64,000 bases of DNA from Burkholderiales bacterium GJ-E10 (GTDB lineage Bacteria > Pseudomonadota > Gammaproteobacteria > Burkholderiales > Burkholderiaceae_F): NCBI GenBank assembly GCA_000828975.1, contig AP014683.1, positions 1,631,700-1,695,699 on the forward strand, given 5' to 3'. Position numbers and translations under genes: made by a program. Every line of letters starts with the position of its first letter. Positions within the stretch are counted from its first letter, which is position 1. Under the pieces are notes generated by a model, which was not told the DNA's origin, did not search any database, and saw nothing but the letters and a program-made list of their open reading frames with translations. This document shows positions 59,188 to 64,000 of the stretch, one piece after another.

Positions 59188-61760
59188 CCACAACCGCCGC
59201 CGCCGCCGCGACGAGCGCGCAACTGCGCGAACGCTGGCGGCGCGGACAGGACGCGATCCTCGCCGGGCTCGCGCGCGGCGGCTCCGTTCTGCCGGCCCTC
59301 CGCAGCCTGGCGCGCGTGACCGACGGCATCGTCCGCACCGCAGCCGCGCACACGGGCGTTTCGCGTTTCGCGGCGGTGGCGGCGATCGGCGGCTATGGCC
59401 GCGGCGAACTCTTCCCCTACTCCGACGTCGATCTGCTGATCGTGCCGGCGCTGCCCCCCGCGGAAGGGGAGCAGAACCGCATCGCCGCGCTCGTGCAGCT
59501 GCTCTGGGACACCGGCCTCGCCGTCGGCCACGCCGTGCGCTCCCCGGCGGAGTGCGTACAGGAGGCCCAGCGCGATGTCACCGTCATGACCGCGCTGCTC
59601 GAAGGGCGGCAGATCTGCGGGCCGAGACCGGCGTTCGAGGCGGTCCAGGCGGCGCTGCGATCGGCCACCGACGCGCGCGCCTTCCTGCGCGCCAAGCTGC
59701 TCGAACAGCGGCAGCGCCATGCCAAGTTCGAAGACACGCCCTACGCGCTGGAGCCCAACTGCAAGGAAAGCCCCGGGGGTCTGCGCGATCTGCAGATGCT
59801 GCTCTGGGTCGCCCGCGCCGCCGACCTGGGCTCGACCTGGGAGGAACTGACCCGCAACGGCCTGATCACCACCGCCGAATGCGCCGGTATCCGCAACGCC
59901 GAACGGCTGTTGAAGCGGGTCCGGGCCCATCTGCACGCGGTTGCGGGGCGGCGCGAGGACCGGCTGGTGTTCGACCTGCAGCATGCGCTCGCCGTCCGGC
60001 TGGGAATCGCCGGGACCTCGGCGCGCCGCGCCAGCGAGGTACTCATGCAGCGGGTATACCGCGCCGCCAAGACGGTCACCCAGATCAACACCCTGGTCCT
60101 GCTCAGCATCGAGCAGCGGATGAACCCGGGCGCGGATTCCCCCCCCCAGATTCTCGATGAAGCGTTCTGCACCCGCGCCGACCTGCTCGACCTTCGCGAC
60201 GACGACGGCGTATTCGAGCGCGACCCGGCGGAGATCCTGCGTGCCTTCCTCGTGCTCGAACGTCATCCCGAATGCCGGTCGATGACGCCGCGCATGCTGC
60301 GCGCGATCTGGAACGCACGGGGCCGCATCGACGGCGGTTTTCGCCGCACCCCGGCAAACCGCGCGCGCTTCCTCGCCATCCTGCAGGAACCCCAGGGCGT
60401 GCTGCACACCCTGCGCCGGATGAACGACTGGTCGGTCCTGGGACGGTATCTGCCGCCATTCCGTCGCATCGTCGGCCAGATGCAGCACGATCTCTTCCAC
60501 GTCTATACCGTCGACCAGCACATCCTCATGGTCGTGCGTAATCTGCGCCGCTTCGCCAGCAGCGACTATGCCCATGAGCACCCGGAGTGCAGCCAGCTCG
60601 TCGCCGATTTCGAGCGTCCCTGGCTGCTCACCATTGCCGCCCTGTTCCACGACATCGCCAAAGGCCGCGGCGGCGACCACAGCACCCTGGGTGCGCGCGA
60701 AGCGCGACGCTTCTGCCTCGATCACGGCCTGTCGCAGGAAGACACCGCCCTGGTCGCATTCCTCGTCCAGCACCACCTCACCATGTCGCAGGTCGCGCAG
60801 AAGCAGGATCTTGCCGACCCCGCGGTCGTCGCGGAATTCGCGCGAACGGTGGGCACCGATCGGCGCCTGGTCGCCCTCTACCTGCTCACCGTGGCCGATA
60901 TCCGCGGCACCAGCCCGAAGGTCTGGAATGCCTGGAAAGCCCGCCTGCTGGAAACCCTCTTTCGCCTCACCCGCCGCAGTCTCGGCGGACAGACGCTCGG
61001 CCCGGAAGCCGAACTCGAAGGGCGCAAGCGTGAAGCCCGGCGCATCCTCGGGCTGTACGGCATTTCCGAGACCGCGCACGAGCCGCTCTGGCGCGAACTC
61101 GACGTCGTCTATTTCCTGCGCAACGCGGCGCCCGATATCGCCTGGCACACCCGCTGTCTCCTCGTCCACGTCCACACCGACCGGACCATCGTCCGCACCC
61201 GGCTCGCACCGGCGGGAGAGGGGATCGAGGTGCTGCTGTACGCGCGCGACCGCAAGGATCTGTTCCTGCGCGTATGCGGCTATTTCGAAAGCCGACGCAT
61301 CAGCATCCTGGACGCCAAGATCCACACGACGCGGCATGGCTATGCGCTCGACACCTTCGTGGTCGTGGACCAGTCGCAGTCGAGCCATTTCCGCACGCTG
61401 CTCGCAAGCGTGGAACAGGAATTGGCGACCCGGCTCACGGGCAGCGCCGAGCCCCCGCCGCCGAACCCCGGCCGCCTGTCGCGTCAGTCCCGCCACTTTC
61501 CGGTATCGCCGGCGGTGTACCTGGAAGCGGAGGAACGCCCCAACCAGTACCGGCTCTCGCTCGTCGCGACGGACCGCGTGGGTCTGCTCTACGCGGTCGC
61601 GCAAGTGCTTGCCCGCCACCACGCCGACGTGCTGACGGCCAAGATCCTCACCCTGGGCGAACGCGTCGAGGACGTATTCCGGATCGAAAGTCCCGCGCTG
61701 GAGAATCCCCGCGCCCAGTTGCAGCTGGAAAACGAGCTGCTGGAAGCGCTCGCGCCCTGA
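59184..61760 (+). CDS. glnD: Bifunctional PII uridylyltransferase / uridylyl-removing enzyme GlnD
   Basis: Nitrogen sensor that adds UMP to PII when glutamine is low and removes it when glutamine is high. 858 residues. Nucleotidyltransferase domain GGYGRGELFPYSDVDLLIV near 70, HD phosphohydrolase with HDLFHVYTVDQHI and LFHDIAKGRGGDHS, and two C-terminal ACT domains (LFLRVCGYFESRRISILDAK; DRVGLLYAVAQVLARHHADV) that bind glutamine. Overlaps map by 4 bases; glnD next to map opposite rpsB-tsf is the usual order. Confidence 0.97.
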   Translation: MTTTAAAAATSAQLRERWRRGQDAILAGLARGGSVLPALRSLARVTDGIVRTAAAHTGVSRFAAVAAIGGYGRGELFPYSDVDLLIVPALPPAEGEQNRIAALVQLLWDTGLAVGHAVRSPAECVQEAQRDVTVMTALLEGRQICGPRPAFEAVQAALRSATDARAFLRAKLLEQRQRHAKFEDTPYALEPNCKESPGGLRDLQMLLWVARAADLGSTWEELTRNGLITTAECAGIRNAERLLKRVRAHLHAVAGRREDRLVFDLQHALAVRLGIAGTSARRASEVLMQRVYRAAKTVTQINTLVLLSIEQRMNPGADSPPQILDEAFCTRADLLDLRDDDGVFERDPAEILRAFLVLERHPECRSMTPRMLRAIWNARGRIDGGFRRTPANRARFLAILQEPQGVLHTLRRMNDWSVLGRYLPPFRRIVGQMQHDLFHVYTVDQHILMVVRNLRRFASSDYAHEHPECSQLVADFERPWLLTIAALFHDIAKGRGGDHSTLGAREARRFCLDHGLSQEDTALVAFLVQHHLTMSQVAQKQDLADPAVVAEFARTVGTDRRLVALYLLTVADIRGTSPKVWNAWKARLLETLFRLTRRSLGGQTLGPEAELEGRKREARRILGLYGISETAHEPLWRELDVVYFLRNAAPDIAWHTRCLLVHVHTDRTIVRTRLAPAGEGIEVLLYARDRKDLFLRVCGYFESRRISILDAKIHTTRHGYALDTFVVVDQSQSSHFRTLLASVEQELATRLTGSAEPPPPNPGRLSRQSRHFPVSPAVYLEAEERPNQYRLSLVATDRVGLLYAVAQVLARHHADVLTAKILTLGERVEDVFRIESPALENPRAQLQLENELLEALAP

Positions 61761-61838: not shown

Positions 61839-62048
61839 CTATCGCAGGCCGAGCAACGGAAAGATGTAGTACCAGGTCACCAGACCCGCCACGACGTTGA
61901 ACACCAGCGCGGCGATCACCATATCCCGCCAGAACCGGAACCAGTCGATCTTTCCCGCGACGGCCCCTCCGCCGGCCCGACCACCCGCCGTCGTTCCCGC
62001 GCCCCGCCGGGAGCGCCCGGCACCCGCGTCTTCCATCATCCGCTCCAT
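61839..62048 (-). CDS. Small membrane protein (69 residues)
   Basis: ATG at 62048 preceded by a strong ribosome binding site GGAGGAG. The first 30 residues are Gly/Ala/Arg-rich (AGTTAGGRAGGGAVAG), then KIDWFRFWRDM and one helix (VIAALVFNVVAGLVTWYYIF). No family recognised. It lies 24 bases downstream of the 36-residue gene and probably forms an operon with it, divergent from the membrane protein/MocR pair. Confidence 0.6.
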   Translation of the reverse strand: MERMMEDAGAGRSRRGAGTTAGGRAGGGAVAGKIDWFRFWRDMVIAALVFNVVAGLVTWYYIFPLLGLR

Positions 62049-62072
62049 GTTGTGCTCCTCCGCCCTCTCCGT

Positions 62073-62183
62073 TCACTTTTCCAGCCGTTCGATCCAGCGG
62101 TCGATCACGCCGATCCGCTGCAGCACGAAAAACAACACGATTCCGATCACGAACCCGATGCTCAATGCGTGGGCGATCGCCAT
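62073..62183 (-). CDS. Very small membrane protein (36 residues)
   Basis: ATG at 62183, TGA at 62075-62073. Ribosome binding site AAGGAG seven bases upstream. The product begins MAIAHALSIGFVIG, has one helix through VLFFVLQ, and ends in an amphipathic charged tail (RIGVIDRWIERLEK). No known family. The good ribosome binding site, coding-like composition and position before the 69-residue gene support it as real. Confidence 0.55.
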   Translation of the reverse strand: MAIAHALSIGFVIGIVLFFVLQRIGVIDRWIERLEK

Positions 62184-62229
62184 TTCCGTCTCCTTTCCGG
62201 CCTCCTGCCGATGAACACCAAAGAAAAAC

Positions 62230-62280
62230 ATAATACATACAATGATCGATCATTGTTGCATTATTGTATTGCATACATTA
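62230..62280. promoter_or_regulatory. Divergent operator region: 18-bp palindrome and CATACA repeats
   Basis: AT-rich patch between the two divergent units. ACAATGATCGATCATTGT (62239-62256) is a perfect palindrome. CATACA occurs at 62236-62241 and again at 62272-62277 in the same orientation, 36 bases apart; MocR-type regulators such as GabR and PdxR bind direct repeats near their promoters. A minus-strand -10 candidate (TATTAT, 62230-62235) lies beside the palindrome. Binding by the MocR protein encoded downstream is inferred. Confidence 0.6.
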
Positions 62281-62372
62281 CCATCACAAAAACCAAAACG
62301 GAAGCGATCCGTTGCCGAAAACCCGATCAAAAGCCGGAACCCCCGTCGATGCCACGGGAAAAGGAGTGCGTC

Positions 62373-62864
62373 ATGACTACGGAACAGACACCGCCCCCGG
62401 TCGCCCGGCCGGACTGGGCTTCGCAACATCGATTCGCAGCGGGGGTCGCCGCGGTGCTCGCCGGCATGGCGGTGGGGGCGCTGGGAGACTGGATCTCGGG
62501 CGTACGCCTCGAAATCTTTCAGGGCATGGCGACTTTCACCCCGGCGTGGATGGGGGACGTTTTCGTCGTCAACTTCGTCGTCGGCCTGGTGGTCGCCGCG
62601 ATCTTCGGGCGCCACGCCAAATGGCTGGCGATCGTGCCGCCCGTGCTCCTGCGGTCGATCAGCTACCTGTATCTCTATTTCACGATGCCCCACCCCGACT
62701 TCTTCCTGAACCTGCACCTGTTCTACTGGGGGCCGACGCTGATCCTGGCGGTCGAGTGCGCAAACCTCGGCGCGATCCTCGGCGAAGTACGGAAGGGGGT
62801 CTACCGCCGCAAGCCCTACAATCCCGCCGACTTGTCGCCTCGACCGGACGCCCCCCATTCATGA
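62373..62864 (+). CDS. Membrane protein of unknown function
   Basis: 163 residues with about four helices (FAAGVAAVLAGMAVGALGDW; VFVVNFVVGLVVAAIFG; LAIVPPVLLRSISYLYLYF; GPTLILAVECANLGAIL) and a basic, Pro-containing C-terminus. ATG at 62373 with AAGGAG upstream. The stop overlaps the MocR start in ATGA, so it is translationally coupled to the regulator and probably belongs to the function it controls. No family recognised. Confidence 0.65.
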   Translation: MTTEQTPPPVARPDWASQHRFAAGVAAVLAGMAVGALGDWISGVRLEIFQGMATFTPAWMGDVFVVNFVVGLVVAAIFGRHAKWLAIVPPVLLRSISYLYLYFTMPHPDFFLNLHLFYWGPTLILAVECANLGAILGEVRKGVYRRKPYNPADLSPRPDAPHS

Positions 62865-64000
62865 CCGATGCCGCCCCCCACTGGCTGCCCGCCCGACTTT
62901 CGACCGACAAGCCGGCATACCTGGCGATCGCCGATGCGATCGCCGACGACATCCGTCAAGGCCGGCTCCGTCCCGAGGACCGACTGCCGCCGCAGCGGCA
63001 ACTGGCCGAGGCGATCGGCCTCAATTTCTCGACGGTCAGCCGCGCATACACCGAGGCGCAACGGCGCGGACTGATCGAATCCCGGGTCGGCCACGGCAGT
63101 TTCATTCGCGCCGACGCAACTCCCCGTGCCCCGGCCGCCCGCGGCAGCGCAACCATCGACATGTCGATGAACCTGCCGCCGGAGCCGGACGATCCGGTTT
63201 TGCTGGCAAAGATGGGGGCAACGTTCGAGCGGATCGCAACCGACGTCCGTCCGCTGCTGCGCTACCAGCCGTTCGGCGGCCACGACTACGACCGCGCCGC
63301 GGCGGCGCAATGGCTGGCTCGGCGCGGGATCCGGGCGCCGCTCGAACGGATCCTGATCTGCGCCGGCACCCATAGCGCGCTCGACGCGCTGTTCGCGATG
63401 CTGGCCCCGGGGACCGACGGCATCCTCTGCGATCCCCTGACCTACACGGGCGTGCGCGCGATCGCGGCGGTCCGCGGCATCGCGCTCATTCCGCTGGACG
63501 CCGACGCCGACGGGATCACCCCGGAATCGCTGGACCGTGCCTGCCGGGCGCATCGTCCCGCGGCGCTCTACTGCAACCCGACGCTGCAGAACCCAACCAC
63601 GATCACGCAGCCGGCGGCCCGCCGGCGCGCCATCATCGAAGTGGCGGAGCGCCATCGGCTCCCGATCATCGAGGACGACATCTACGGCATGTTGCCGCCG
63701 GAGCCGCCGCCGTCCTACGCCGAACTGGCAGCCGATCGCACCTATTCGATCTCCGGCCTCTCGAAAACGCTGGGTGCGGGCTTGCGCCTGGCCTACCTCG
63801 TCCTGCCCGACGAGCGCGCCACCACCCGGGCGACGGCCGTGCTGCGAGCGACAACGGTCATGGCCTCGCCGATCACCACCGCCATCGCGACGGACTGGAT
63901 CCAGAGCGGCGTCGCGTCCGAGCTGGTCGCGTTCCTCCGCGCAGAATCGCAGGCACGCCAGGAAATCGCCGCCTCGGCCCTCGCCGGAGCCGACGTGCTC
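62861..64000 (+). CDS. MocR-family PLP-dependent transcription regulator, 3' end outside window
   Basis: At least 380 residues, cut by the window edge. N-terminal GntR-type winged HTH at about 18-85 (AYLAIADAIADDIRQGRL; DRLPPQRQLAEAIGLNFSTV) joined to a class I aminotransferase-like domain: NPTLQNPTTITQP, IIEDDIYGMLP, and the PLP-lysine region SISGLSKTLGAGLRLAYLV. MocR proteins sense PLP or an amine/amino acid through this domain. Overlaps the membrane protein gene by 4 bases; the likely targets are that gene and the divergent small genes. Confidence 0.88.
   Translation, partial: MTDAAPHWLPARLSTDKPAYLAIADAIADDIRQGRLRPEDRLPPQRQLAEAIGLNFSTVSRAYTEAQRRGLIESRVGHGSFIRADATPRAPAARGSATIDMSMNLPPEPDDPVLLAKMGATFERIATDVRPLLRYQPFGGHDYDRAAAAQWLARRGIRAPLERILICAGTHSALDALFAMLAPGTDGILCDPLTYTGVRAIAAVRGIALIPLDADADGITPESLDRACRAHRPAALYCNPTLQNPTTITQPAARRRAIIEVAERHRLPIIEDDIYGMLPPEPPPSYAELAADRTYSISGLSKTLGAGLRLAYLVLPDERATTRATAVLRATTVMASPITTAIATDWIQSGVASELVAFLRAESQARQEIAASALAGADVL

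Follow-up and report, generated by a model that had tools for sequence, protein, structure and literature searches.

The last part of a 64,000-nucleotide stretch of DNA from Burkholderiales bacterium GJ-E10 (the window; G000:C1:1631700-1695699 of genome G000, 3.28 Mb in a single contig) encodes a MocR regulator, a four-helix membrane protein and two tiny membrane proteins. We give a probability of about one half to the proposal that these genes constitute a MocR-switched accessory kit for cbb3-type respiration, which is possibly cyanide-responsive. On this reading, three membrane proteins that lack annotation would probably belong to respiratory metabolism, and the regulator and its predicted operator form a pair that can be tested.

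The gene arrangement proved to be as the first-pass annotation, made from the letters alone, had described it. Tiny protein 1 (62073-62183, 36 amino acids) and tiny protein 2 (61839-62048, 69 amino acids) are encoded on the minus strand and contain one predicted transmembrane segment each, located near the C-terminus in tiny protein 2. The gene of the four-helix protein (62373-62864, 163 amino acids) lies divergently on the plus strand, and its stop codon overlaps the start of the MocR gene at 62861 (ATGA). The MocR gene occupies 62861-64000 of the window on the same strand; the 463-amino-acid regulator ends at G000:C1:1695951, 252 bases beyond the window. Both transcripts are separated by an AT-rich, putatively regulatory spacer of 189 bp (62184-62372), which was aligned among four genomes. 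The ribosome binding sites claimed for the tiny genes were recovered as AAGGAG- and GGAGGAG-like sequences at the usual spacing.

Comparison at the level of sequence, gene order and tree showed the four-helix protein to be a detached, orphan relative of a protein from divergent cbb3-type oxidase clusters. A scan of genome contigs yielded 16 loci of the family in unclassified Proteobacteria metagenome-assembled genomes (MAGs), peat MAGs, Gallionella, Sideroxydans, a Nitrosomonadales MAG and Nitrotoga. In genome samples that include the window's genome, the family was present in 23 of 399 genomes of the order and in 30 of 369 genomes of the class. In all 29 class loci read outside the order, the homologue has a cytochrome c gene on one side and an FGE gene on the other; these loci (the second match of G692 was left out) span 2-3.4 kb, which is too short to reach oxidase subunit I. 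In nineteen longer loci from the order or from named genomes, the cluster that contains the homologue also encodes a CcoN-like subunit I. Subunit I of Gallionella matches the solved cbb3 CcoN structure 3mk7 with an E-value of 1.4e-60, and scores 233.6 versus a ccoN cut-off of 583.15; its partner matches CcoO, likewise under the cut-off of that model. As far as such matches can tell, the cluster encoding the four-helix relatives is a divergent cbb3-type oxidase cluster. In the clusters of Gallionella, Sideroxydans, Nitrotoga and others, the four-helix copy is flanked by the cytochrome c and FGE genes, and neither MocR nor the tiny genes adjoin it. The first-pass annotation had assigned none of the three membrane proteins to a known family. 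This holds insofar as none scored above a family cut-off, but the four-helix protein does have relatives in the oxidase clusters.

G000 also encodes a paralogue that is 39% identical to the four-helix protein (genus homologues 41-44%) and clusters with FGE-domain, spermidine-synthase-domain and CcoG-like ferredoxin proteins. The accessory cluster lies behind two-component genes at 1.583 Mb of G000, and subunits I and II are encoded at 2.315 Mb; this split of the accessory cluster from the oxidase subunits (loci L190, G000:C1:2300000-2319900, and L022) was seen in the window's genus, and the two are contiguous in Gallionella and others.

A tree was calculated from 76 rows, consisting of 16 orphan and 60 cluster-type copies, seven of the latter from the window's genus. 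L030 and L032, which are the same records as L017 and L018, were left out, as were further second copies (L003-L013, L024-L026, L033-L035, L037 and L040-L069). All 16 orphan copies fell on one side of a single branch (100/100), which was present in 100% of 200 bootstrap trees. Provided that the root lies outside the orphan group, this topology agrees with a single emergence of the detached form, before the genus arose.

An AlphaFold2 model built from 58 of the 76 family rows displayed four long helices (15-42, 57-78, 88-104 and 116-140) with a mean pLDDT of 89.3, and thus supports the four-helix assignment made from the sequence. Foldseek searches with this model returned nothing at E <= 0.001. 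The best VIA-align Z score was 7.4, which may reflect only the common helical-bundle arrangement, and the sole match of the family profile to sequences of solved structures had an E-value of 0.18. The protein missed the cut-off of DUF6069 (PF19545; 20.7 versus 27.2 bits) and had no match in the plasmid collection.

Selection on the coding sequences was estimated from the ratio of non-synonymous to synonymous differences per site (pN/pS), summed over the six pairs formed by four genomes; these pairs are not independent. Values of 0.077 for tiny protein 1, 0.38 for tiny protein 2, 0.114 for the four-helix protein (last 154 codons) and 0.114 for MocR were obtained. The low ratios support translation of both tiny reading frames, less firmly in the case of tiny protein 2. 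Synonymous divergence of tiny gene 1 was about threefold lower (pS = 0.079, 12 differences) than that of the other module genes (0.22-0.25) in the four genomes, hinting at a nucleotide-level constraint within this gene. Neither tiny protein matched a Pfam or NCBIfam family above cut-off, CcoQ and other known small oxidase subunits included, although such short proteins often escape profiles. The sole PHROGs match of tiny protein 1, to a tape-measure family (E 0.011), was taken as chance.

The view that the four genes belong together as one MocR-linked module is borne out by four of seven genomes of the genus (G000, G021, G022 and G023), which contain MocR, the orphan four-helix gene and both tiny genes. 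Tiny protein 2 was matched in all four, with a longer frame of 77 amino acids in G021. Neither MocR nor the orphan membrane protein was found in G024, G025 and G026, which are 88, 83 and 64% complete, respectively; the MocR search gave nothing in G025, and in G024 and G026 it reached only the aminotransferase part, at 31% and 29% identity, respectively. Across the family, 11 of the 16 orphan loci adjoin a MocR gene, four of them in the window's genus. Outside the genus, seven of twelve orphan loci (L027, L081-L086) adjoin a different regulator, termed Gal-type MocR, which is divergent from the membrane gene. This regulator is PdxR-like and falls outside the clade of MocRs linked to Nit1C genes; the L027 copy is 25% identical to the window MocR. 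Gene content thus showed, as read from sequence, that the set stands beside MocR in several families of the order, with exceptions described below.

A tiny 1 homologue that overlaps the 3′ end of the membrane gene is present in L027, L082, L083, L084 and L085. Judged by eye, tiny 2-like open reading frames (ORFs) follow tiny 1 in L083, L084, L085 and L188. A membrane-type protein of 58-63 amino acids follows in L027, L081, L082 and L086. In L188 the Gal-type MocR faces tiny 1, a tiny 2-like ORF and then a CcoG-like gene (71.1 bits, cut-off 316.7). A Gal-type MocR facing tiny 1 was also found in L189 and L232, both on short contigs. Two loci of Gal-type relatives on plasmids were opened; GABA-type (γ-aminobutyric acid) and other genes were found alongside, and no module genes. 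With the tiny 1 profile, matches at E <= 0.05 were obtained in 33 of 399 genomes of the order, many being marginal. A second, stand-alone tiny 1-like gene of 40 amino acids is present in G000 itself (L221 7523-7645, near G000:C1 3209549), and other genomes contain further stand-alone copies, of which that in L234 is followed by a 53-amino-acid membrane-type ORF.

The window MocR displays the architecture of its family. The N-terminus forms a GntR winged helix-turn-helix domain (PF00392, 56.3 bits, cut-off 27) and the C-terminus an aminotransferase fold type I domain (PF00155, 69.4 bits for the part within the window, cut-off 19.7), in which the residues for pyridoxal 5′-phosphate (PLP), K302 in SGLSKT and Y275 in DDIYG, are present. 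This overall architecture is shared with EhuR and PdxR, but the regulator remained under both NCBIfam cut-offs (429.1 versus 480 for EhuR, NF052286; 192 versus 320 for PdxR, NF052282). Of four G000 matches to the PdxR model, only the window MocR begins at the model start; the others begin at position 91 or later.

The eleven closest relatives among 300 genomes of the order share 43-51% identity with the window MocR, and ten of them adjoin Nit1C marker genes. In a 53-row tree calculated by a quick method, the four module MocRs grouped with twelve others, ten of which have MSMEG_0572- and Nit6803-type genes within 1.5-kb flanks. Fifteen plasmid loci with a window-type MocR were opened, ten of which carry annotation. 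MSMEG_0572 was found in five of the ten, and two of these five (Methylorubrum CM4 and Agrobacterium) contain a long run of Nit1C-type genes. Another carrier of MSMEG_0572, the Methylocystis iwaonis plasmid (L242), has cydA-cydB-DUF2474 directly upstream of the window-type MocR; ccoG takes this position on the Azospirillum ramasamyi plasmid (L252), and a gene of the cysteine synthase family is divergent from MocR in the Roseateles plasmid locus. The stretches read from the Thioclava, Sinorhizobium and Tabrizicola plasmids contain no such gene. A DUF983-family gene lies within a few kb of the window-type MocRs at L240, L247, L251 and L253. The Nit1C-linked MocRs represent a sister clade of the window MocR, whose plasmid members share the word CATACAWT with it and whose Burkholderiales members carry CRATCAWT.

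Two CATACAWT sequences were found in the spacer on the plus strand, box 1 at 62236-62243 (CATACAAT) and box 2 at 62272-62279 (CATACATT), 36 bp apart. The first-pass annotation had drawn attention to this pair of CATACA repeats, and alignment confirmed that both words are retained in all four genomes. Box 2 is part of an invariant block of 32 columns (62255-62286, plus strand) identical in all four. The doubled box (gap 2-32) occurs once per genome in the four whole genomes, always in this spacer, and a reversed control pattern had zero occurrences in the same genomes. From sequence conservation the CATACA repeats look like operator boxes, and we treat them as candidate MocR operators. The second element pointed out in the spacer, an 18-bp palindrome (62239-62256), is present and perfect in G000, where it ranks second longest among ten perfect palindromes of at least 14 bp in the window. 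It was rejected as a conserved operator because it is broken in all three sister genomes, so that G000 alone carries the perfect form.

Three words, CATACAA, CATACAWT and CRATCAWT, were counted upstream of MocR relatives. CATACAWT was taken from the window's own two boxes. Upstream of the 15 plasmid MocRs it occurred at 17 sites in ten loci (shuffle mean 0.35; none of 500 shuffles as high). Ten of these loci were fetched after the word had been fixed; they contain twelve sites in seven loci (shuffle mean 0.18; none of 2000 as high), and control stretches inside the MocR genes of the same ten loci contain none. These plasmid loci are not fully independent, since several come from related genera. 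All three words exceeded shuffles in the plasmid set, and CRATCAWT alone in the Burkholderiales set, from which L144 had been dropped as a near copy of L143. There, CRATCAWT was found at 20 sites in six of ten loci (shuffle mean 1.18; none of 500 as high). The words are mostly direct, with 25 forward versus 2 reverse ATCAWT in eleven loci and a spacing of often 11 bp. The spacer contains one weak match to CRATCAWT, the word of the Nit1C-linked relatives, on the plus strand at 62247-62254 (CGATCATT). It was discarded as the window's operator: the numbers of 1000 shuffles scoring as high were 33 for G000, 28 for G023, 136 for G022 and 350 for G021, and the CGATCATT site is lost in G021.

The spacers of the Gal-type MocRs carry another word, TGTACMTGTAYTGT, which was exact in nine of ten and matched in 13 of 14 letters in the tenth. 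As the word had been read off eight aligned spacers, only L086 and L232, scored later, test it; the L086 spacer was scored with an alternative MocR start chosen by us. Exact TGTACMTGTAYTGT occurred seven times in 1.09 Mb of loci longer than 7 kb, each time in a Gal-type spacer, and its absence elsewhere is independent of how the word was derived. CATACAWT was found in none of eight Gal-type spacers. Regulator type and operator word thus differ together, with TGTACMTGTAYTGT in Gal-type spacers and CATACAWT in the spacers of the window's genus, and one gene set appears joined to two unlike MocRs with two unlike operators. The first-pass annotation had expected its proposal to fail if MocR orthologues were linked to unrelated genes and lacked the palindrome or the repeats. 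Part of this picture was seen, namely the Nit1C linkage and the absence of the palindrome from the sister genomes, but many relatives share CATACAWT boxes (10/15 plasmid and 0/10 Burkholderiales loci), and a MocR often accompanies the membrane genes, even where it belongs to another subfamily.

In Pseudomonas aeruginosa, the MocR regulator MpaR responds to endogenous cyanide and thereby controls ccoN4, the gene of an orphan subunit; mpaR is co-transcribed with a CcoG orthologue, and activation by cyanide-modified PLP has been proposed (PMC10790758). As in the MpaR/ccoN4Q4 system, the module combines a MocR with an orphan gene related to a cbb3 cluster. The CcoG orthologue of that system has a counterpart here in the CcoG-like gene after the tiny genes of one relative locus, L188. 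Unlike the MpaR cluster, whose orphan is the catalytic subunit CcoN4, the module encodes a four-helix protein and two tiny proteins, and no ccoN-like gene is among its four genes. The comparison covered the published description of the MpaR system, its gene content and its promoter motif. In outline, the module would work like this system without necessarily being a member of it. In P. pseudoalcaligenes CECT5344, a MocR adjoining the cluster of the cyanide-insensitive oxidase (cio) was suggested to be a cio repressor (PMC8567248). There too, in a setting that involves cyanide, the MocR gene points away from genes that surround an oxidase, but that cluster carries the nitrilase Nit4, and its oxidase and genes differ from those found here.

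MocR regulons often include cytochromes and cytochrome oxidases, for which no cyanide link is made in the passages of the account drawn on; direct repeats are common in MocR operators (PMC5320631). With respect to the oxidases themselves, in a Ferrovum genome the genes of cbb3 subunits I and II are accompanied by co-localised cytochromes c, and a subunit III was not recognised (PMC4725956); Gallionellaceae genomes contain mostly proximal or distal ccoN (PMC10734462); and Sideroxydans ES-1 possesses both ccoN forms, which respond differently to electron donors (PMC8788666). No paper on the module itself was found in the titles and abstract openings of open-access literature among the matches listed.

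In the mechanism that we favour, MocR would bind the predicted CATACAWT boxes and control both divergent transcripts, its own included; such binding is assumed because the boxes are conserved and enriched. The PLP domain of MocR would sense an inducer as the trigger, and the three membrane proteins may join, help to assemble or tune a terminal oxidase. Cyanide, a nitrile or another inhibitor of heme-copper oxidases is probably the most likely inducer class, since Nit1C genes neighbour most of the nearest MocR relatives, and cydAB and ccoG one relative each, and since MpaR answers to cyanide in its control of an orphan cbb3 subunit. If so, relatives of Gallionella, Sideroxydans and Nitrotoga would join Pseudomonas, in which MocR control of orphan oxidase parts has been described. 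Only tentatively do we go further and suggest that a PLP-domain regulator sensing cyanide or nitrile switches on the three small proteins, which serve a divergent cbb3 oxidase as assembly factors or as subunits that can be exchanged, and that this kit has been wired to two distant MocRs with their own operator each.

Several observations weigh against an accessory kit for cbb3-type respiration, in particular a cyanide-responsive one. An oxidase-cluster relative exists for the four-helix protein only, not for the tiny proteins, and the fold matches were uninformative on four-helix protein function. Five of the 16 orphan loci (L028 and L095-L098) are without MocR in the stretch read, no tiny 1 was detected in L081 or L086, and three Gal-type MocR loci (L188, L189 and L232) are without the membrane gene beside tiny 1; strong additional matches of the tiny 1 profile include stand-alone second copies. 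CATACAWT was present in none of the ten Burkholderiales MocR relatives scored, where CRATCAWT is found instead. It is also missing from five of the 15 plasmid loci, including the ccoG- and cydAB-linked ones: no CATACAWT was found within 350 bases upstream of MocR in L242 and L252. Nit1C-linked MocRs flank nitrile or cyanide genes, but the MSMEG_0572/Sll0783 marker was found in none of eleven genomes, G000 included, in a search without positive control, which is weak evidence of absence. The MpaR motif ATCTGAT is absent from 62184-62372. Furthermore, regulation of nit1C in Pseudomonas is described for NitA, which is of the sigma-54-dependent type and not a MocR (PMC11049912), and cyanide sensing would not have been inherited from a common ancestor, because the Gal-type MocR lies outside the Nit1C-linked clade.

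Some of these points fit a kit of the same kind that answers to another signal, such as nitric oxide, copper, redox stress or PLP status, and whose proteins protect or mature a cbb3 oxidase. The CcoG-like gene in L188, ccoG beside the window-type MocR in Azospirillum and the Nit1C marker search in G000, negative without a positive control, point in this direction, as do the cytochromes and oxidases frequent in MocR regulons, which the passages drawn on mention without cyanide (PMC5320631). Given that the closest MocR relatives are mostly Nit1C-linked, we regard such a signal as possible but somewhat unlikely. Characterised MocRs control PLP, GABA or taurine genes (PMC5320631), and the first-pass annotation had considered PLP, amino-acid or amine transport. 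This lead found no backing, as none of the three membrane proteins matched a transporter family in Pfam, NCBIfam or PHROGs. With the four-helix relatives residing in oxidase clusters, a MocR that senses an amine or B6 vitamer and membrane proteins that take part in its transport appear improbable.

The Nit1C-linked sister clade of the window MocR would also suit a unit for uptake or detoxification of nitriles or cyanide, in which the Nit1C-type signal is kept and the membrane proteins handle the compound, not an oxidase. We consider such a unit quite improbable, since a PdxR-like MocR of another kind accompanies these membrane genes in other families and a four-helix relative is encoded in oxidase clusters. 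The MocR-less orphan loci (5/16) and the variable flanking genes could even mean that the linkage has no function, with MocR regulating itself or distant genes only and the membrane genes being incidental. Such a coincidence is very improbable in view of the recurrence of the linkage, with dissimilar operators and two dissimilar MocRs, in families f1, f24, f37 and f42 and in a named Gallionella, and of a doubled box that occurs once per genome, between the two transcripts.

Other genes were seen around the orphan membrane genes. Genes for a CbbQ/NirQ/NorQ-type AAA protein and a VWA-domain protein lie downstream of the orphan gene and the 63-amino-acid ORF in L086 (8306-10890). By eye, the MocR-less orphan genes of L095-L098 are located near photolyase-like genes, and a small cupredoxin-like gene is also near the orphan membrane gene in L095, L097 and L098.

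The genes flanking the module in the window's genus were likewise named by eye. Its upstream neighbour in the window is a glnD-like gene that ends at 61760. In G000 the module is followed by a LysR gene and a YeiH-like gene, in G022 by a cold-shock gene, and in G023 a GGDEF/EAL-like gene separates glnD and the module. As the flanks differ among G000, G022 and G023, the module holds together while its neighbours change.

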